Origin: a virus
Length of the DNA: 60,895 nucleotides
Reading direction: 5' to 3' (one strand)
IMG/VR virus record: IMGVR_UViG_3300049432_000039
Location: 1 to 60,895 of that record
Positions 2,890-60,895 of this stretch are shown here, in pieces; the first letter of the stretch is position 1, and the number at the start of each line of letters is the position of its first letter. The notes under the pieces were generated by a model that did no database searches, was not told the origin of the DNA, and worked only from the letters and a program-made list of their open reading frames with translations. The translations under genes were made by a program, and so were the position numbers.

Positions 2890-3089
2890 ACAAGATCCTG
2901 AGCACCCGAACGCAACTCATTATCTCGTGGGTTTTGCTGATCGGTTCCATCGTGGGATGGCCCGTCACGTCGTTGACCATCTTTGCTACTGAACCGCAGG
3001 GGATTCTGGGGCTCAGTTGGTTCGCGATCATCCTTGGCGCCTTCAACACGATCGTGACCGCCACAGTCAACGATGAGGTGACTCCATGA
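2886..3089 (+). CDS. two-segment membrane protein, holin-like
   Basis: A 67-aa protein with two hydrophobic helices (around LIISWVLLIGSIVGW and GLSWFAIILGAFNTIVTA). Size and topology fit a small holin or antiholin. It is joined to the previous and next starts by ATGA overlaps. Confidence 0.6.
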   Translation: MNKILSTRTQLIISWVLLIGSIVGWPVTSLTIFATEPQGILGLSWFAIILGAFNTIVTATVNDEVTP

Positions 3090-3115
3090 TAAACCTGCGT
3101 ATCGTCACCGCTGCG
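3086..3115 (+). pseudogene. 5' stub of the split holin gene
   Basis: ATG at 3086 overlaps the previous stop as ATGA and encodes MINLRIVTA. The intact holin gene at 3478 begins MVNLRIISIA, nearly the same peptide from diverged codons. The stub therefore looks like the original gene start, cut off by insertion of the antisense gene at 3119-3388. The reading frame runs on open but is only the shadow of that gene. Confidence 0.6.
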
Positions 3116-3118
3116 CGC

Positions 3119-3388
3119 TCATGTTCGGCGCGCAATGATGTGGCTGACCGTTGCCTGCGTAATGCCGTATTCAGAAGCAAGGCGGCGCTGCGTGATACCG
3201 CCGACCGAGCGCTTCAGGCAACCACACGACCGCGCACGGCCATGCTTCAAGGCCGATCCCTCGGCGGATCGAGTTGCCCCACAATCGCACTGACACAACC
3301 AGTACGCAGGGACAGTTGGGTCTTTTTCCAGAACGACCAGTCGGCCAAAACGCTGGCCCGGTTCGAAGCTGATAAGATTCGCTCGCAT
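3119..3388 (-). CDS. homing-associated zinc and HTH protein
   Basis: An 89-aa protein antisense to the lysis cassette. The first half has the FGRLVVLE motif followed by a cysteine pattern (CQCDCG, then SCGC) found in AP2- and HNH-type phage homing proteins. The end is a helix-turn-helix (GITQATVSHII). No HNH, GIY-YIG or LAGLIDADG catalytic motif is visible, so it may be a nuclease-less DNA-binding derivative or a partner of a nuclease elsewhere. It has its own TATAAT promoter and hairpin leader, shared with the HNH gene at 12496. It splits the 5' end of the holin gene. Confidence 0.65.
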   Translation of the reverse strand: MRANLISFEPGQRFGRLVVLEKDPTVPAYWLCQCDCGATRSAEGSALKHGRARSCGCLKRSVGGITQRRLASEYGITQATVSHIIARRT

Positions 3389-3407
3389 CGAGCCACACCT
3401 CGGTGTC

Positions 3408-3460
3408 GCCCCAGCGTGTTAGTCGCACGACTGGGGCATTCTTCTGCTCAGATTATACCA
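3408..3460 (-). promoter_or_regulatory. homing-gene promoter and leader hairpin
   Basis: On the minus strand TGG-TATAAT (3452-3460, extended -10) is followed by AGAATG and a stem GCCCCAG/CTGGGGC (3408-3437), then a segment ending GAGGTGTGGCTCGATG at the start codon. The same arrangement precedes the HNH gene at 12496. Confidence 0.7.
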
Positions 3461-3477
3461 CCCACTCGGAGGGCGGC

Positions 3478-3783
3478 ATGGTGAACCTTCGCATCATCTC
3501 CATCGCTGTAGCCGTCTGTCTGGGGATGCTCGGGGCTATCCAGCTCGCCTCGCCTGAGTCGCTCGGCATCTCGGCTGTTGCAGCTCGCTGGCTCGGGATC
3601 ATAGCCACAGGTCTGGGCATCCTTGCCGGCTTCCTGCCGAGAGTGCAGGGGCCCTCTGCCAATCCTGAGACCCTGGCCGACCGCGTCTGGGCACTGCCAG
3701 AAGATGAGCGGCAGCAGGTTGCCACTGATCTCGCGGCACGTGCTGAGCGCGCAGCTAGAGGGGTGAGCGTTCCGCATGGCTGA
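3478..3783 (+). CDS. holin-like two-segment membrane protein
   Basis: A 101-aa protein with two hydrophobic helices (residues of about 7-25 and 33-52) and a charged tail, directly upstream of and overlapping the endolysin by 8 bases. It is the best holin candidate by position. GGAGGG precedes the ATG. Its first ten residues match the stub at 3086, so this start region seems to have arrived with the inserted antisense gene and replaced the original end. Confidence 0.7.
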   Translation: MVNLRIISIAVAVCLGMLGAIQLASPESLGISAVAARWLGIIATGLGILAGFLPRVQGPSANPETLADRVWALPEDERQQVATDLAARAERAARGVSVPHG

Positions 3784-5716: not shown

Positions 5717-5737
5717 GCTCACAGAAATCGTCCCAGG

Positions 5738-5760
5738 AAGCTGCCTGCTTTAGCTGGCAG
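5738..5760. repeat. hairpin repeat, copy 1
   Basis: A 23-base element, AAGCTGCC then TGCTTTAGC then TGGCAG, whose ends pair (CTGCC/GGCAG) around a TTTA loop. The same 23 bases recur at 6073-6095 and 6308-6330. Copies 1 and 3 also share the left flank CGTCCCAGG. On the minus strand this copy lies about 20 bases before the start of the gene at 5716. Confidence 0.9.
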
Positions 5761-6072
5761 AGGAATGGGACAGCCGATCTTGGATCGGCCCCGGATTGAG
5801 AACCGAGAATCAACCGCCACTCGGTACAATGAAAGGGATGAGTCCAAAGGCACCCACTGGGTCAAACAGTTAGGACTCAGCACCTTGACAACCAAATCTT
5901 GACGGTTGCTGGCAGGACTCTTTGCCAGCGTAAAAGGTTTGAAGCGGGGTCGGAGCATGTCTCTGGCCTGTCCTTCGGAGTAGCCTCGGGGCTACATGCT
6001 GGGGCGTCAGTCAATGCGCCTATGGTTGGGGTCGTTGATGTTGGAGATCGAAGCCCAACGGAGATCACTGAC
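5761..6072 (+). ncRNA. structured RNA or decayed mobile-element end
   Basis: No gene is evident here, but many perfect short stems are: CCGATC/GATCGG (5774-5788), GAGTCC/GGACTC (5840-5878), GCTGGCA/TGCCAGC (5908-5929), GTAGCC-TCGG-GGCTAC (5980-5995) and GTTGG/CCAAC (6040-6059). The segment is bounded on both sides by the 23-base hairpin. On the plus strand the right boundary (AAGC-stem-TTTAG-stem-GTCGTTGAC) resembles right ends of IS200/IS605-family elements, where TnpB guide (omega) RNAs end. No tnpA or tnpB gene is present. Alternatively it is a long leader of the gene at 5716 on the other strand. Strand and identity are inferred. Confidence 0.4.
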
Positions 6073-6095
6073 AAGCTGCCTGCTTTAGCTGGCAG
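6073..6095. repeat. hairpin repeat, copy 2
   Basis: Identical to 5738-5760 and 6308-6330. With copy 3 it shares the right flank TCGTTGACTC. The TAA in its loop serves as stop codon of the minus-strand gene 6085-6342. Confidence 0.9.
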
Positions 6096-6342
6096 TCGTT
6101 GACTCTCTCCTCTCGCGCCTCTCCCACTCCCTCCGCGCTCGGCGGTAGGCGTCGCAGCGGATGCACATACCACCAGCGGCGCTGAGTGGACAGGGGACGC
6201 CACTCGATCTGGCGTAGCACTCGCCGTAATCAACCCGACGCGGCGGCTGATTAGGATCACGGTATATCCGTTGTTCGTTCATCGTCTCACAGACCACCCG
6301 TCCCAGGAAGCTGCCTGCTTTAGCTGGCAGTCGTTGACTCAT
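6085..6342 (-). CDS. hypothetical Cys-rich basic protein
   Basis: An 85-aa protein starting at an ATG with a strong GGAGGAAACG site. Its codons 5-11 (LPAKAGS) are encoded by hairpin copy 3, and its stop lies in copy 2, so the repeats are embedded at both ends of the gene. The core has a Cys pattern (ECYARSSGVPC, CIRC) and a highly basic C-terminal helix, suggesting a metal-binding nucleic-acid protein. ATG 6282 is an internal alternative. Confidence 0.5.
   Translation of the reverse strand: MSQRLPAKAGSFLGRVVCETMNEQRIYRDPNQPPRRVDYGECYARSSGVPCPLSAAGGMCIRCDAYRRARREWERRERRESTTAS
6308..6330. repeat. hairpin repeat, copy 3
   Basis: Third identical 23-base copy. It joins the left flank of copy 1 (CGTCCCAGG) to the right flank of copy 2 (TCGTTGACTC), as expected of a version lacking the 335-base segment found between copies 1 and 2. 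Confidence 0.9.
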
Positions 6343-11843: not shown

Positions 11844-12374
11844 ATGCGCTACTGGTTTGACACTGAGTTCATCGAGGATGGCAAGACCATCGACCTGATC
11901 TCCATCGGCATCGTGGCCGAGGACGGTCGCGAGTTCTACGCCCAGAACCTAGACACCCACTTCGATGGGGCGAGCGATTGGGTGCAGAAGAACGTTATCG
12001 CCCATCTGTCTAACATGGAGTATTGGCATCACCGTGACGGCGACCCGGTCGGATGGTTCACACGGGAGTCGATCAGTGCCGGCATACGGACGTTCTGCGA
12101 CCCGGTGGCCTACGGCAAGCCCGAGGTGTGGGCCTACTACGCTGACTATGACTGGGTTGTGCTCTGCCAGCTATTCGGGACCATGATGGATCTCCCAAAA
12201 GGCTGGCCGATGTACTGCCGGGACATCAAGCAGTGGGCCGACATGCTCGGGAATCCGAAACTTCCGAAGCAGGAGAGCGGCGAACATCACGCACTCGCCG
12301 ATGCTCGGTGGAACCGTCAGGCTTGGGAGTTCCTGCGCGATACGGCATCCTCATCGGATTCGCCAGATAGATAG
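11844..12374 (+). CDS. DEDDh 3'-5' exonuclease, RNase AS-like
   Basis: A 176-aa protein. FDTEFIED carries the first two acidic metal ligands, WAYYADYDW the third, and GEHHALADARW the final His and Asp of the DEDDh set. Size and motifs match the Rv2179c/RNase AS exoribonuclease family. It could mature or degrade phage or host RNA. GGAGG precedes the ATG. Its 3' end overlaps the stub of the integrase C-terminus on the other strand. Confidence 0.85.
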   Translation: MRYWFDTEFIEDGKTIDLISIGIVAEDGREFYAQNLDTHFDGASDWVQKNVIAHLSNMEYWHHRDGDPVGWFTRESISAGIRTFCDPVAYGKPEVWAYYADYDWVVLCQLFGTMMDLPKGWPMYCRDIKQWADMLGNPKLPKQESGEHHALADARWNRQAWEFLRDTASSSDSPDR

Positions 12375-12424
12375 GCGTCAACAGCACGCCTCACGGTCTG
12401 CTGGTCACCACTGGGCATGGAGTG
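12317..12424 (-). pseudogene. int: orphan 3' end of the integrase gene
   Basis: On the minus strand 35 codons encode HSMPSGDQQTVRRAVDAYL and a tail, then TGA. This aligns with the end of the present integrase (YIHASAEGREEVGKLIDQYL). It has no start of its own and begins exactly where the homing-gene promoter begins, so it is best read as the original integrase end cut off by that insertion. Confidence 0.6.
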
Positions 12425-12427
12425 AAC

Positions 12428-12477
12428 TGGTATAATTGACGCAAGAATGCCCCGGCACTGCTGAAACAGTCCGGGGC
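12428..12477 (+). promoter_or_regulatory. HNH-gene promoter and leader hairpin
   Basis: TGG-TATAAT (12428-12436), then AGAATG and the stem GCCCCGG/CCGGGGC (12449-12477), then a segment ending GAGGTGTAGCTCGATG at the start codon. It is the same layout as at 3408-3460. Confidence 0.75.
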
Positions 12478-12495
12478 TCACCGAGGTGTAGCTCG

Positions 12496-13215
12496 ATGCC
12501 TGTTCAGTGTACCTGCCTCCAATGCGGCGGCGCCTTTACTGTTCGGCCAAGTCGAATTCGCGTGGGGACTGGCAAGTACTGCTCCTATGCGTGCAGCGAC
12601 GCCGCGAAGTTGACGCTGGTAGAACGCCCGTGCGTCATCTGCTCCACGTCGTTTATGGTACGAGCGGCGAAGAAGCAAGAGTGTTGCGGCACGCGATGCG
12701 CCCTGCGACTCGTTCAGAACCGGAAGCGCACGCCGCTCAACGTTCGGTTCTGGTTGAAAGTCAGCAAAGACGGTCCGGTCCCCGCGCATCGCCCGGAGCT
12801 CGGCCCATGCTGGCCCTGGACTGGCAGAACGGGCAGCCACGGGTATGGCCTGATCCGCCGAGGCGAAGGGGACTACGCTAACCTTGAAGCCCACCGCGCA
12901 TCATGGGAACTCCATCGAGGGCAGATCATGGACGGACTCTGGGTGCTTCACCACTGCGACAATCGCCCCTGTGTCAGGCCGGATCACCTGTTCCTTGGTA
13001 CCTCGCCGGACAACCATGCCGATATGGTCAGTAAGGGTCGGCAGGCACGAGGCGAGAAGACGAACACGGCCCGACTGACTGAGTCTCAGGTATTAGAGAT
13101 CAGGCAGCGGCGAGCATCAGGTGAACGGCAGACGGATCTCGCCCGAGAATTCAGTGTCAGTGTCAACACCATCGGGAACATCTTCCGTCGAGAAACTTGG
13201 GCACACCTGCCTTAG
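12496..13215 (+). CDS. HNH homing endonuclease with zinc modules
   Basis: A 239-aa nuclease. Residues 1-75 hold several Cys pairs (CTCLQCGG, YCSYAC, CVICST, CCGTRC), that is zinc fingers. Residues of about 95-175 are an HNH domain (AHRASWELHRG, LHHCDNRPCVRPDHLFLGT). The end is a helix-turn-helix (DLAREFSVSVNTIGNIF) for DNA recognition. It is transcribed from its own promoter, and its stop overlaps the integrase stop on the other strand. It seems to have cut the integrase gene near the codons of the catalytic Tyr motif. Confidence 0.85.
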   Translation: MPVQCTCLQCGGAFTVRPSRIRVGTGKYCSYACSDAAKLTLVERPCVICSTSFMVRAAKKQECCGTRCALRLVQNRKRTPLNVRFWLKVSKDGPVPAHRPELGPCWPWTGRTGSHGYGLIRRGEGDYANLEAHRASWELHRGQIMDGLWVLHHCDNRPCVRPDHLFLGTSPDNHADMVSKGRQARGEKTNTARLTESQVLEIRQRRASGERQTDLAREFSVSVNTIGNIFRRETWAHLP

Positions 13216-14366
13216 CCTGACTGTTGCTCTTGCTCGCTCGTGTCGCTGAGGTACTGGTCGATAAGTTTTCCGACCTCCTCGCGACCCTCTGCTGAGGCAT
13301 GGATGTAGGTTTTGAGAGTGACCCCGGGGTTGGAGTGCCCCAAACGTTCGGCCACGGCCGCCGCCGAGGCGCCGCCTTCAAGTAACGCGCTCGCCAACCC
13401 ATGACGGGCGGCATGGGGAGTCAAGTCATCCAGTTTCAACTCAGCAACGAGTTTATGTAGGTCGTCGGTCACGATGAAGGCTGACCATGGCTGCGTTTCA
13501 CCCGTTCGCTTGCGCGGATAGGGTGACTGCATGACCAGAGTCGATCCCTCCGGCTGACTGTTACGGTGACGGATTAGGGCGCTGATCACCATTGGGGGAA
13601 GGTCTACCCACCGGGGAACCCTGGACTTCGGGAGCTCTCGCCATGCCGAACCTGTCCACTGCCGTTGAATCCAGGCCCGGCGTCCGGCCAGGTCAACGTG
13701 ACTCCACGACAGGCCGAGCACTTCCCCAATTCTTAGACCGCACCCTAGCAAAAGAGCGTAGGCAGCCTCGAACCTATGCCCGACGATGGCAGCACGCAAC
13801 AGTGCCGCCTCGGCTGGTGAGACGTGACGACGTGCCGTGCGGGGCGGGGTCTTTGGAAGCGTGAGCCGGCGCGCGGGGTTACGGGCGAGCCGCTCGTCAT
13901 CGACTGCGGCTTCCAGGCAGGCCCGCCAGACACCGACCGCCTGATGCACGGTGGCGGCGCCAATACGGCCACTCAGCGCTCCCACGATGCCCTGAAGCAT
14001 GGACGGCCTCACTTCGGCCAACAGCGCCTCGTACAGGGGCGCGAGCTGCTGAAGCAGATACAGATAGTGTCGGCTGGTGTTCGGCGCCAGGATCGGCGCG
14101 ACGTAGGTGTCCCACCAGGAGCCGACCCAGTAGCCGAGCGTGACCGTGGCCGGCGCGGGTGCAGATAGTATCTGCGGAAAAACGAAACTATCGAGCCACG
14201 CGATGGCCTCGTCTTCACAGCCGCGCGGAAACTCGCGCGCTGTCCGCTTCGGATCGACGGCCGCCGGTAGCCGAGCGCGCACTGTCCCCGTGGCCGGATC
14301 GACGCTGATAGATCCGGTGCCACGGCGCCGGCGTAGTGGCTTCTCGGGTTTCTTTCGACGGGGCAT
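13212..14366 (-). CDS. int: tyrosine-type integrase
   Basis: A 384-aa site-specific recombinase that inserts and excises the phage genome. The N-terminal arm-binding part is basic, followed by a SAM-like core-binding domain (about 75-165). The catalytic domain shows the family residues: Arg in CGLRIGEVLGLSW, the HAARHGL box, LGHSNPGVT and the nucleophile in KTYIH. The last 30 residues, after the Tyr, correspond to the orphan segment at 12317-12424 and may be a replacement end. ATG 14366 overlaps the upstream stop (TGATG); a GTG one codon earlier is possible. Confidence 0.93.
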   Translation of the reverse strand: MPRRKKPEKPLRRRRGTGSISVDPATGTVRARLPAAVDPKRTAREFPRGCEDEAIAWLDSFVFPQILSAPAPATVTLGYWVGSWWDTYVAPILAPNTSRHYLYLLQQLAPLYEALLAEVRPSMLQGIVGALSGRIGAATVHQAVGVWRACLEAAVDDERLARNPARRLTLPKTPPRTARRHVSPAEAALLRAAIVGHRFEAAYALLLGCGLRIGEVLGLSWSHVDLAGRRAWIQRQWTGSAWRELPKSRVPRWVDLPPMVISALIRHRNSQPEGSTLVMQSPYPRKRTGETQPWSAFIVTDDLHKLVAELKLDDLTPHAARHGLASALLEGGASAAAVAERLGHSNPGVTLKTYIHASAEGREEVGKLIDQYLSDTSEQEQQSG

Positions 14367-40510: not shown

Positions 40511-40767
40511 TGCTTGACGCTAGGCCGGCGTCGTGCGTGAGGTACCCACTCGGCTTCGATCCTCGCGGTCGTGACTGCGCCCCCGGCGCGTTCGGCACGG
40601 TGCATGGCCCCGAGTGCGACTATCACCCGGAGAATCGTCGCCGCATGCCAGCGTCCTGTCTGTCTGGTACATACGGCAGGGGATGCGACCCGTGGGAGTT
40701 TGGCACCCTCCACGGTCCTGAATGTGGCTATCACCCGAAGAACCAGGGGAGCAAGCCCGATGCTTGA
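40510..40767 (+). CDS. tandem Cys/His repeat protein
   Basis: An 85-aa protein with two copies of one unit: CAPGAFGTVHGPECDYHPEN and CDPWEFGTLHGPECGYHPKN. Each has two Cys and two His, probably one zinc ion per unit. No known family. Its first codons (MLDAR) match those of the next gene (MLDAS), suggesting local duplication. Confidence 0.6.
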   Translation: MLDARPASCVRYPLGFDPRGRDCAPGAFGTVHGPECDYHPENRRRMPASCLSGTYGRGCDPWEFGTLHGPECGYHPKNQGSKPDA

Positions 40768-41839
40768 CGCCTCGCCGATCACTCCGCTGGCCGTCATTGG
40801 TAGCCCTAAATATCCCCCAGATCACTGGAGAATCTGTCGTCCGTTTACGCGCCTGCGGCAGTCCGGCATGGACGCGCAGTACATCCACGGCGCCGACCAG
40901 AACGCGCCGGTCAATCCCGAGAATACCCTGCTGGTGCTACCGCACCTGACGGGCCAGGACGAGGTGTCGCTGTCCGAGTGGCTGGCCGAGCGCCGGCCGA
41001 TGGTCCGCAAGATCGTCTACGAGACCGACGACGACGTGTTCACCGAGGACCGTCTCCAGCACCTCAAGGACGCCAATTTCTTGCAGGGCAAGACCGAGGA
41101 TGAGATCCGGGCCGAGCAGCGTGTCGCTCGTTGGCTGGTCACCCAGGTCGACGCCGTGACCGTCTCCACCGAACCACTAGCCGCGCTGGTCCGCACCCTG
41201 ACCAACCGGCCCGTCCACTGCATCCCGAACGCGCTGGACGTCAGATGGTTCCGGGCGCACATGACCTATCGCACACCGTGGGCCGACACGCTCACCATCG
41301 GGTGGGCCGGCGGCCGGCGCTCCGAGCGCGACATCGTCCCGATGGCCCGCGCCTGGGGCAAGATCGCCAAACGGTATCCTGAGGTCCGCTTCGTGACGGC
41401 TGCCCCGACGACGCTGACGGCGATCTACCGCTACGTCCCCGAGAACCGGGTGCTTCGCCTGCCGTGGCTCGGGTTGGACGATTATCCGATCGCATACCAA
41501 ACTTCGATAGGCTGCTGTAGCGTCAGGGACACGCCGTTCAACCGCTGCCGGTCACCCATCAAAGCCTGGGAGTACGCCATCGCCGGGGCTGCCGTGGTGG
41601 CGACGCCCACGGTGTACGGCGATTGCATGCGGGGTGGTACTGCGGAGCCAGAGATTGCCGAAACCGCTGATGACTGGGAAGCCGCGCTATCGCGCCTTAT
41701 CGAGGATGAGTCGCTTCGTGCTCAGGTGCCGGTGTTTATGCGTGAGCACGTGATGGCACATCACGACCTCGACGCCCAGGTCACCCGCTGGTCGGATACG
41801 TACCGGGAGATCGCACTCGGCTCGGCGGTGACGGCGTGA
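40760..41839 (+). CDS. GT-B glycosyltransferase 1
   Basis: A 359-aa protein. HWRICRPFTRLRQSGMDAQY starts the N-domain. TLTIGWAGGRRSERD and SPIKAWEYAIAGAAVVATP are the nucleotide-binding C-domain of GT4-like enzymes. It is paralogous to the gene at 46815. Probable target: capsid or tail proteins. Confidence 0.8.
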   Translation: MLDASPITPLAVIGSPKYPPDHWRICRPFTRLRQSGMDAQYIHGADQNAPVNPENTLLVLPHLTGQDEVSLSEWLAERRPMVRKIVYETDDDVFTEDRLQHLKDANFLQGKTEDEIRAEQRVARWLVTQVDAVTVSTEPLAALVRTLTNRPVHCIPNALDVRWFRAHMTYRTPWADTLTIGWAGGRRSERDIVPMARAWGKIAKRYPEVRFVTAAPTTLTAIYRYVPENRVLRLPWLGLDDYPIAYQTSIGCCSVRDTPFNRCRSPIKAWEYAIAGAAVVATPTVYGDCMRGGTAEPEIAETADDWEAALSRLIEDESLRAQVPVFMREHVMAHHDLDAQVTRWSDTYREIALGSAVTA

Positions 41840-45515: not shown

Positions 45516-45937
45516 TGGCCTACACGACCGGCACCCTCGCGACGTTCATGGTGACCAAGCTCGGCGCCGCCGTGGCATCCGCGCTGAGTCTGACGACGGC
45601 CTCGCTGCCGATCGTGGAGGCCGTCAACGACGTCGCCTCGCTCCTGGATACCGCCATCGCGGATCTGACCGACGACCAGAAGACGCGGGTGATCGCCGAA
45701 TGGCGGGTATGGCTGGTGGCCGAGGCCGAAGCGATCGCGCTCATCGACCTCAAGTCAAGCGGCGACGAAATGAAGCTCTCGCAGCTGTGGGACCACATCC
45801 GGGCACGACTCCTCGCGGCCGAGACGGCGGCGATGGTCTACGACGAGGTGCTCGCGGCAACCGGCGCCGGCGGCGTCATGGTCATCGCCTCCGTCGGCGG
45901 CACCCAGCAGCCGTACGGCTGGGCGTCGGAGTTCTGA
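45515..45937 (+). CDS. head-tail connector-like protein
   Basis: A 140-aa helical protein in the position of the gp6/gp15-type adaptor. Helices around DDQKTRVIAEWRVWLVAEAE are followed by a short beta end. Identification is positional. Confidence 0.55.
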   Translation: MAYTTGTLATFMVTKLGAAVASALSLTTASLPIVEAVNDVASLLDTAIADLTDDQKTRVIAEWRVWLVAEAEAIALIDLKSSGDEMKLSQLWDHIRARLLAAETAAMVYDEVLAATGAGGVMVIASVGGTQQPYGWASEF

Positions 45938-45966
45938 TGGACTGCCCCAAGGTGGTCGCGCTCAGG
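45937..45966 (+). pseudogene. 5' stub of the split glycosyltransferase gene
   Basis: ATG in a TGATG overlap encodes MDCPKVVALRS. The intact gene at 46815 begins MTMQDLRVVALV. The stub is cut by the antisense HNH gene at 45967-46620, as in the holin case. Confidence 0.5.
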
Positions 45967-46620
45967 TCAGGTGACGTGTCTCCAAGACTCGCCACTCAGC
46001 ACGCGCTGAATAGTGCTTCTTCCGACACCGAATATGACCGCGATCTTGCCGGGCTTCATGCCGGTCTCAGCGACTGCTCTGATCGACCGGACGGCGTCTT
46101 CGGTGAGTTTCGCGAAGGGGCTGGTCTCTCCCCGGAGAAAGTAGTCGGGTCGCGTTTTCGACGGGTGAGCCGCGCCCCGCAGATAGGTTTCGGGATGCAA
46201 GCGCGATCTATGGCGCTCACCGCGTGCGAGCCGCTCAGGGTGCAGCCTTGCTGGATTCCGAGCGCCTGTGAGGGAACGCCCCTTGATGACCATATCGCGG
46301 GAGTTCTGAAGGGGTGTCCCCGCAAAGAGATGTCCCCAGGTTGGGATAAGCACGCCGCCGACTTCGTGAAAACGGGGCGCATCGTTTCTGACACAGAGCT
46401 TGACATCGCAGGTATGGCAGGCCAAGCGACCATCTATCAGGGTGCCGCTGGCCAATTCGTAGGCGACTTGATGGGCGGCAAAGACGGGACCGCGGTAGGT
46501 GGTGGATATTCGGCCGTAGCCATTTCTGGGACGGTCGATCCACAGCCAGCAAGTCTCGGTCTTTTCGACCTTCGACCAGAAGCGAGCCAGGAAATCAGCG
46601 GTATACTCAGGACGCAGCAC
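45967..46620 (-). CDS. HNH homing endonuclease
   Basis: A 217-aa protein. FWSKVEKTETCWLWIDRP and AHQVAYELASG, then LACHTCDVKLCVRNDAPRFH, give an HNH-type core. The C-terminus is a helix-turn-helix (KIAVIFGVGRSTIQRVLSG). GTG 46620 is preceded by GGAGGT. It is antisense within the late operon and has its own promoter at 46784. The His-Asn part is slightly divergent, so activity is uncertain. Confidence 0.8.
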   Translation of the reverse strand: MLRPEYTADFLARFWSKVEKTETCWLWIDRPRNGYGRISTTYRGPVFAAHQVAYELASGTLIDGRLACHTCDVKLCVRNDAPRFHEVGGVLIPTWGHLFAGTPLQNSRDMVIKGRSLTGARNPARLHPERLARGERHRSRLHPETYLRGAAHPSKTRPDYFLRGETSPFAKLTEDAVRSIRAVAETGMKPGKIAVIFGVGRSTIQRVLSGESWRHVT

Positions 46621-46682
46621 GGGTACCTCCGTGATGTCGTGCCTCCGGCCGTTCGTAGCGGCGCGGAGGCTTCGTGTTGTCG

Positions 46683-46792
46683 GCTGAGCAGTCCGGGTTC
46701 CCCAACCGGCACCCTGCCTGAGGGCTTCGCAACCTCCACCCCGGCAATGCAAACCACGACCGGAGTCGCCGCTCAGCATTCTAATTATACCG
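46683..46792 (-). promoter_or_regulatory. HNH-gene promoter and leader hairpin
   Basis: Minus strand CGG-TATAAT (46784-46789), then AGAATG, then GCTGAGC pairing with GCTCAGC (46683-46777). Same order as the leaders of the two other homing-type genes, with a longer loop. Confidence 0.6.
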
Positions 46793-46814
46793 CTTCACTT
46801 CGAGTGGAGGCGGC

Positions 46815-47921
46815 ATGACGATGCAGGATCTTCGGGTTGTTGCGCTTGTTGCTGATGATACGCGCGCCGATGCCCACTGGCGCATCGTGCGGCCCTTCAC
46901 GCGCCTGCGCGAGCGGGGCATTGACGCGCGGTGGTGCTGGCTGGACGCCGACGAGCTGCCGGCCCTCCCCATCGGCGGCGCCGTCGTTGTCCTCCAGCGC
47001 GTCACCGTCAAGGGGCGCAACCGCCGCCAGGTCAATGCCTGGGTGGATCGGCTCCGAGCCGCCGGCGCGCTGGCGGTTGTGTACGAGGCCGATGACGACA
47101 TTTGGAGCCCGGCCTACCTGGAGTACCTGACCGCGAGTGGGCGGATCTACTCGGGCGACTACGGCCGCGTCCAGGCGGAGGCCCAGGCGCAGATCTGGGC
47201 CATGCAGGCGTGCGACGCGGTCACGGTCAGCACAGATCCACTGGCGGCTGTAGCGCGGCAGTACACCGACGCGCCCGTCTACGTGATCCCCAACGCCATC
47301 GACACCGAGTGGTTCATGGACCATCTCATGCCGCGCCCTGAGTGGCACGACACGGTGACGATTGGGTGGGCGGGTGGCCGGCGGCCGGAGTCGGACCTGG
47401 AGTCGATGGCCGTGGCGTGGGGACGCATCAGCCAGCGCTACCCGAAGGTCCGCTTCGTGGTCGCGGGCTGGCAGCACGACGTCATCTACCAAGAAATAGC
47501 AGACTTGGATCGAATCATCCGTCTCCCCTGGCGCGAGGTGCCCGACTACCCGCCGGCATTCCAAACTACGATCGGATGTTGCGCGGCCCCGTCTAACGCA
47601 TTCAGTTGCTGTAAATCGCCCATCAAGGCGTGGGAGTACGCGCTGGCGGGTGCTGCGGTCGTGGCGAGCCCGGTGCCGTACGTGGACTGCATCTTCGGAC
47701 GGAGCATCAACGCGGTCTCCACCGAGCAGTGGGAATGGCACCTCGCAAACCTGATCGAGCAGATCGACGTTCGGCACGCGGTCGCGTCGAACCTCCGTCG
47801 GCACGTCATGGCCGAGCACTCCCTGACCGGCAACCTGCGCGTCTGGACCAATGTCTACAGCAGCATAGCGAACCGAGAGGGGGCGCGCAGTGGCAGCACT
47901 GATCTCGTCGTCGCTCGCTAG
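46815..47921 (+). CDS. GT-B glycosyltransferase 2
   Basis: A 368-aa paralogue of 40760-41839: HWRIVRPFTRLRERGIDARW, TVTIGWAGGRRPESD, SPIKAWEYALAGAAVVASP. Its first codons are less GC-rich and lie beside the promoter of the antisense HNH gene. They seem to replace the original start, now stranded at 45937. GGAGG precedes the ATG. Confidence 0.8.
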   Translation: MTMQDLRVVALVADDTRADAHWRIVRPFTRLRERGIDARWCWLDADELPALPIGGAVVVLQRVTVKGRNRRQVNAWVDRLRAAGALAVVYEADDDIWSPAYLEYLTASGRIYSGDYGRVQAEAQAQIWAMQACDAVTVSTDPLAAVARQYTDAPVYVIPNAIDTEWFMDHLMPRPEWHDTVTIGWAGGRRPESDLESMAVAWGRISQRYPKVRFVVAGWQHDVIYQEIADLDRIIRLPWREVPDYPPAFQTTIGCCAAPSNAFSCCKSPIKAWEYALAGAAVVASPVPYVDCIFGRSINAVSTEQWEWHLANLIEQIDVRHAVASNLRRHVMAEHSLTGNLRVWTNVYSSIANREGARSGSTDLVVAR

Positions 47922-59952: not shown

Positions 59953-60864
59953 GTGCCGCCGACGCCGCCACCGGGCCGGGGCCTCGGGAAGAGGGGCGCA
60001 TCTCCCGAGGCCGAGCGGGTCTTAGAGCGAATGTTTATGCGCCTCCAGCGCCGCATCTTCGACGAGGTCGCCCGGATGATCGCGCGAGCGCTCGGACAGG
60101 TGACCTCGGTCCCGCAGCCGCCCCTCGGCGTGGCGGTCATCCCGCCGCTCGGTGGTGACGTCACTGGCAGCATCAGCGCCACCACGGTTGAGCATCTCCA
60201 GGGCATCCCGGTCAGCGCCACCGACCCGACCGAGGGCCAGGTGCTCAAGGCCGTCTCCGGGACGTGGATGCCGGCCGCCGATGTGGGATTCGCCAACCCG
60301 ATGACCACGGCCGAGGATCTCATCAAGGGCGGGGTGAGCGGAGCGCCCGCACGGCTCGCGGTGGGAACTACCGGCACCGTCCTGAAGGTGGTCGCCGGCG
60401 TCGTTGCCTGGGCGGCCGAGATCGTCTCGGCGCTCGCCTCGTCGGTCGTGACCGAAACCGCGTTCGGGCAGTCCTCGGCGGTCGGTGTCGCAACGACGGC
60501 AGCCCGAGGCGACCACACCCACGGCACGCCGACGAATCCGATCACGGCGCACGAGGCGGCGGCCAACCCACACCCAGATTACACGACGACGGCCGAGCTG
60601 GCGACGGCCGTGGCGCTGTTGCTCGCCAAGTCCCTGATCGACGCGAAGGGCGACCTGATCCTCGGTACGGCCAACGACGTACCGGCCCGCTTAGCTGTCG
60701 GCACGGACGGGCAGATCCTCTACGCTGACAGCACCCAGGCGGCCGGCGTCCGCTGGGACGACGCGCCGACCGGCGGGGGGTCGTCGCACTGGGAGGTCGT
60801 GCTGCTGGACGGTGAGCCCGTCACGCTCGATGGTTCATGGCTGTACATGGAAGTTTTGGACTGA
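59953..60864 (+). CDS. tail fibre protein with one repeat module
   Basis: A 303-aa protein from GTG 59953. Helical N-terminal stalk (EAERVLERMFMRLQRRIFDE), a middle GGDVTGSISATTVEHLQG segment, then one copy of the fibre module (RGDHTHG, HEAAANPHPDYTTTAEL, SLIDAKGDLILGTANDVPAR) found twice in the next fibre gene. The stop at 60862 is also present at 110 in the left overlap. Confidence 0.8.
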   Translation: MPPTPPPGRGLGKRGASPEAERVLERMFMRLQRRIFDEVARMIARALGQVTSVPQPPLGVAVIPPLGGDVTGSISATTVEHLQGIPVSATDPTEGQVLKAVSGTWMPAADVGFANPMTTAEDLIKGGVSGAPARLAVGTTGTVLKVVAGVVAWAAEIVSALASSVVTETAFGQSSAVGVATTAARGDHTHGTPTNPITAHEAAANPHPDYTTTAELATAVALLLAKSLIDAKGDLILGTANDVPARLAVGTDGQILYADSTQAAGVRWDDAPTGGGSSHWEVVLLDGEPVTLDGSWLYMEVLD

Positions 60865-60895
60865 TGAGGAGGCGTGCTCGTGGCAACCCTGGCTG
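60770..60895. repeat. terminal overlap, right copy
   Basis: Identical to 18-143; see that entry. The 17 bases before it (60753-60769) differ from 1-17 only by changes to C or G at the left end. Confidence 0.93.

Follow-up and report, generated by a model that had tools for sequence, protein, structure and literature searches.

The window analysed here, a 60,895-nucleotide stretch of viral DNA that makes up IMG/VR virus record IMGVR_UViG_3300049432_000039, carries an imperfect terminal direct repeat (7-143 and 60759-60895, 97% identical); the record may be near complete. A stem-loop-rich stretch with no Rfam match (5731-6340) is flanked by the repeats GTCCCAGGAAGCTGCCTGCTTTAGCTGGCAG (5731 and 6300) and CTGCCTGCTTTAGCTGGCAGTCGTTGACTC (6073 and 6308). 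At the locus of interest, a tyrosine integrase gene and an HNH endonuclease gene lie antisense to one another (Table 1). The integrase is intact, with an uninterrupted reading frame and all of its catalytic residues (R213, H319, R322, H345 and Y355) in invariant columns of the integrase alignment. Its C-terminus reads ...TYIHASAEGREEVGKLIDQYLSDTSEQEQQSG*, and we refer to the end past the catalytic Tyr as tail A. The stop codon of the integrase falls within the final bases of the HNH gene, which is also intact, encodes a zinc-finger N-terminus and a C-terminal HTH, and is flanked by the integrase end on one side and by an orphan minus-strand frame, tail B, on the other. A sequence-only reading of this DNA had described the integrase end, the HNH gene and the orphan frame; all three exist.

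Table 1 Features of the integrase locus (cassette 1) and of two further cassettes in the window.
Feature	Position	Strand	Evidence
Tyrosine integrase P0001	13212..14369	-	Pfam Phage_integrase 3.6e-22
Tail A, working C-terminal end past catalytic Tyr	13212..13304	-	integrase
HNH_3 endonuclease gene P0002	ATG 12496 to stop 13215	+	Pfam HNH_3 1.8e-10; PHROG endonuclease families
CACC (conserved) and Shine-Dalgarno GAGGTG (12483-12488) ahead of ATG	12478..12495	+	
Leader hairpin of cassette 1 (7 bp, bulged C, 4 bp, 6-nt loop)	12449..12477	+	
Extended -10 promoter box TGGTATAAT of HNH gene	12428..12436	+	sequence; equal position in other cassettes
Tail B, orphan integrase-like C-terminal end	12317..12427	-	frame and similarity statistics
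Cassette 2, HNH-family relic (zinc finger and HTH, no nuclease domain)	3119..3388	-	PHROG 374 8.8e-16
Cassette-2 leader hairpin	3408..3437	-	
Orphan gene start MINLRIVTAA, cassette 2	3086..3118	+	window rank 1 (34 vs 23); exceeds all 1,999 null pairs
Working gene with replaced start MVNLRIISIA, cassette 2	3478..3783	+	
Cassette 3, HNH gene located via leader motif	45967..46620	-	PHROG 826 4.1e-17
Cassette-3 leader hairpin	46641..46670	-	covariance model, 52.8 bits
Possible orphan start MDCPKVVAL, overlapping upstream stop (TGATG), cassette 3	45937..45966	+	weak

The HNH gene is free-standing, with no intron or intein signature; searches of the window with Rfam, up to E=1, matched neither a group I or II intron nor any other RNA. 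Judged from its sequence, the region is, on balance, a free-standing putative HNH homing-endonuclease cassette that comprises a promoter, a leader hairpin, a Shine-Dalgarno site and an HNH gene antisense to the integrase, and a mobile-like character of that gene is supported.

Tail B reads VHSMPSGDQQTVRRAVDAYLSGESDEDAVSRRNSQA* and lies beyond the HNH promoter. Codons 12424-12317 had been claimed to be homologous to the integrase end. Aligned with tail A, tail B gave a Smith-Waterman score of 42, the highest among the window's ~1,460 stop-to-stop frames (the runner-up scored 32); of 20,000 shuffles, 2 reached this score in one run and 5 in another. With the leading VH removed, tail B still ranked first (37 versus 32; 33 of 20,000 shuffles). 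When gene ends neighbouring cassettes were paired across loci with leader-side frames, the tail A/B pair came top of 40 loci (p=0.0027), and its score was reached by 0 of 112 and 0 of 39 false pairs containing one or the other partner. Tail B is also about as similar to 88 independent integrase ends as tail A is (top-10 mean, p=0.005 versus 0.012). The tail A/B similarity depends on ~20 residues. Short integrase-tail profiles, which are too short even for the working end, found neither tail, and the tail B frame had no match in the phage collection. The claimed homology therefore holds as the first-ranked likeness in the window, tempered by modest statistics and by the first codons of tail B: cassette 3 likewise has AGTGAA ahead of its -10 box, so GTT CAC may be part of the promoter. 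From its sequence, tail B is probably a second, diverged integrase end, with a likeness that is real but modest.

The last 58 bases of tail B are antisense to a 3'-5' exoribonuclease gene (11844-12374). This gene encodes ~10 extra C-terminal residues compared with its relatives, antisense to tail B (12317-12374), and most relatives align over residues 1-164/166 only. The integrase relatives that were found reach at most ~37% identity, and no uninterrupted locus turned up among them; terminase and exoribonuclease relatives, tried as a route to such a locus, gave nothing useful.

In the conserved element to which the leader of the HNH gene belongs, TGGTATAAT comes first, then a hairpin (7 bp, a bulged C, 4 bp and a loop of 6-7 nt), after which GRCACC and a Shine-Dalgarno site lead up to the start codon. 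The first 13 leaders share features for which they were not selected, namely the bulged C, an A in the loop and CACC; they had been selected by base pairing alone, which inflates covariation. In a covariance model with 36 members, 97.7% of cells are paired and both sides have changed in 9 of 11 pairs, a covariation score reached by none of 500 shuffles. A feature-based motif matched 15 entries in 3.7 Mb, three of them duplicate records, all ahead of HNH genes, and a sequence-constrained motif occurred 13 times in 1.84 Mb versus 0-1 times in resampled DNA. The covariance models of Rfam 15 gave no match at the leaders of the window, phage or Chloroflexota loci. A search of IMG/VR with the exact leader pattern, which is too strict, returned nothing, blastn found no cultured phage with the leader, and inspection by eye showed no consistent pairing between the two flanks of the hairpin. 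The element, conserved and common to several mobile nuclease families, is apparently undescribed: a limited literature search turned up no account of it.

The leader also revealed further cassettes, some of them with a comparable scar, that is, a diverged copy of a gene start or end at either side of an antisense HNH cassette. The sequence-only reading had overlooked the leader as well as cassettes 2 and 3. A leader matching that of cassette 1 led to cassette 2 (3086-3478), where it is a gene start that is present twice. In an anchored test that used start codons as anchors, with 113 HNH loci and 1,999 null pairs, the top two scores belonged to a locus of an unrelated phage (L008; 35) and to cassette 2 (29), compared with a null maximum of 26. 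L008 has MPARVNQL, eight identical residues, on both sides of its cassette. The two copies differ only by synonymous changes, suggesting that they diverged as working genes in separate lineages and not as a decaying duplicate. Cassette 3, a previously unnoticed HNH cassette, was revealed by its leader hairpin; its stub (45937-46815) is weak (KVVAL versus RVVAL), with a score of 12 in the anchored test, within the null. It is located at the start of the gene at 46815-47921, which is related to another ~6 kb away (40571-41839; DNA repeats D7 and D17). A gene-end stub is absent from most leader cassettes examined. In about two-thirds of 24 leader cassettes, an antisense-strand gene stops -7 to +34 bases from the nuclease stop, and other leader cassettes have the start of the downstream gene on the leader side. 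That the scar recurs is consistent with insertions in which a gene end was substituted.

Further leader copies were found outside the window with a covariance model (R1). Because the 48 phage records searched had been picked for HNH genes, the informative point is what lies directly downstream of each leader. Of 15 new phage copies, 13 stand ahead of nuclease-like genes (the exceptions being L334 and L341); for several (L332, L337 and L253), the call comes from visual reading of motifs or from PHROG labels. These genes include HNH genes of other subfamilies (L267:1482, L073, L336, L339, L342 and L344) and a GIY-YIG gene (L340, 2.1e-8). Among 400 Chloroflexota genomes, which were not chosen for HNH genes, there were 11 copies: three ahead of HNH genes, two directly upstream of cas1 (L321, PF01867 2e-36; L320 similar) and six cellular copies without a gene (L315-L318, L322 and L323). 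Five of these stand-alone copies (L315, L316, L317, L318 and L323) are followed by no open reading frame and then by an apparent intrinsic terminator; the leader lies at position ~1501 in L315, L316, L317 and L323 and at 1415 in L318. They are candidate small RNA genes, and the geneless copies show that the hairpin is more than a nuclease leader and suggest a role beyond nuclease genes. The single copy in 111 Deinococcota genomes precedes tnpB (L347, HTH_OrfB_IS605 6.6e-12).

Tail B might not be an integrase end at all, with the cassette merely lying between two genes and the frame representing a promoter-proximal spacer plus exoribonuclease antisense, or what is left of a short gene downstream that began at ATG 12418. 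Only ~56 bases of tail B lie outside the exoribonuclease gene, AGTGAA before the -10 box in both cassettes 1 and 3 could make GTT CAC cassette sequence, and other leader cassettes sit at co-oriented gene junctions with the gene start on the leader side. When all frames in 500-base flanks are compared without restriction, GC-rich low-complexity matches dominate and a score of 42 is also common. We nevertheless regard this reading as unlikely, if a serious competitor, given that the likeness survives without VH and tops the cross-locus test, that tail B resembles independent integrase ends, that ATG 12418 has no preceding ribosome site and that the frame has no database match. Ordinary mosaic recombination is improbable as an explanation; here the whole integrase gene and its HNH neighbour would have been swapped for the resident, with tail B left over and no nuclease-driven event. 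Phage genomes are mosaic, and both tail A and the integrase body could be foreign, but an equal scar beside HNH cassettes at other sites points to the cassette as the driver.

IS200/IS605 elements carry subterminal hairpins, and the leader hairpin could likewise be a signal for single-strand DNA transposition, with the nuclease genes as passengers mobilised in trans. As at the ends of those elements, the hairpin has a bulged base and lies near a boundary (~20-25 bases from the apparent left one), and one leader copy precedes a TnpB gene. However, none of the 16 phage records searched contains a Y1 transposase, none of the three cassettes in the window has a partner hairpin of the leader architecture close to its 3' end, and the hairpin is placed between promoter and ribosome site. 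On these grounds transposition is less likely than RNA-level control, and we consider it quite improbable. In our analysis, the leader is most simply, and most likely, read as controlling a harmful nuclease at the RNA level. T4 nucleases use RNA hairpins for such control, and in seg43(25) of an Aeromonas phage a stable hairpin is placed just ahead of the ribosome site (PMC2988022), as in the leader described here.

The earlier proposal that the HNH gene had inserted into the integrase and left the old end behind draws support from the free-standing, mobile-like gene, the probable integrase end and the recurrence of the scar at other cassettes; this support does not extend to the direction, to the cut site that it gave, at the His next to the catalytic Tyr, or to cutting of the integrase gene by this HNH enzyme. 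Since the integrase stop lies inside the end of the HNH gene, as in other family members, the integrase body and present end could be native and tail B incoming. We infer homing, and consider one-sided repair after it to be the likelier account, and the best one, of the scars. A break near the integrase end would have been repaired from a cassette-carrying donor, by homologous recombination inside the integrase body and, on the other side, by illegitimate joining where donor and recipient had no common sequence, so the working and orphan ends would come from different phages. An equal one-sided event at gene starts would have produced the stubs at 3086 and in L008. T4 homing provides a documented precedent for one-sided illegitimate repair of this kind, with joints at microhomologies (PMC2988022). 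The leader, as RNA, may tune the expression of the toxic, selfish nuclease.

A comparable arrangement is known from fungal mitochondria, where nuclease genes carry in a replacement gene end and the native end is displaced (PMC3630166). In the C-terminus-replacing mobile ORFs of Allomyces (atp6) and Glomus (atp6, atp9, cox2 and nad3), an endonuclease gene likewise lies between a working foreign end and a displaced native end. Those ORFs carry LAGLIDADG or GIY-YIG genes and their native end was identified by relatives (PMC3630166), whereas the phage cassettes carry HNH genes, are antisense and affect gene starts as well as ends. The evidence for a second, diverged copy beyond the nuclease, as seen in fungi, is modest for the integrase and strong at the two duplicated gene starts (cassette 2 and L008). 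In T4-like phages, free-standing homing endonucleases (seg and mob) also sit at gene junctions, some with RNA hairpins upstream, but these hairpins are not described as one shared family (PMC2988022), whereas a single covarying leader serves several unrelated nuclease families here. HEARO and the IscB omega RNA similarly place an RNA beside an HNH gene; the leader is much smaller, a single hairpin, and has no Rfam match.

Tentatively, and with some doubt, we propose that a single promoter and structured-RNA leader module is found across unrelated selfish nucleases (HNH subfamilies, GIY-YIG, Cas1 and TnpB) in phages and some bacteria. The module would be kin to the terminator-ended stand-alone RNA genes of Chloroflexota and would act as a control or mobility signal exchanged by nuclease genes, and the diverged gene-end scars left by their cassettes would be a record of donor and recipient. 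The shared, covarying leader offers a concrete handle on why unrelated families of homing nucleases all thrive in the same phages and on what restrains their toxicity. It also locates hidden nuclease genes, one in this window and others of families that had not been searched for. The gene-end scars would show homing making hybrid genes in phages, as it does in fungal mitochondria.
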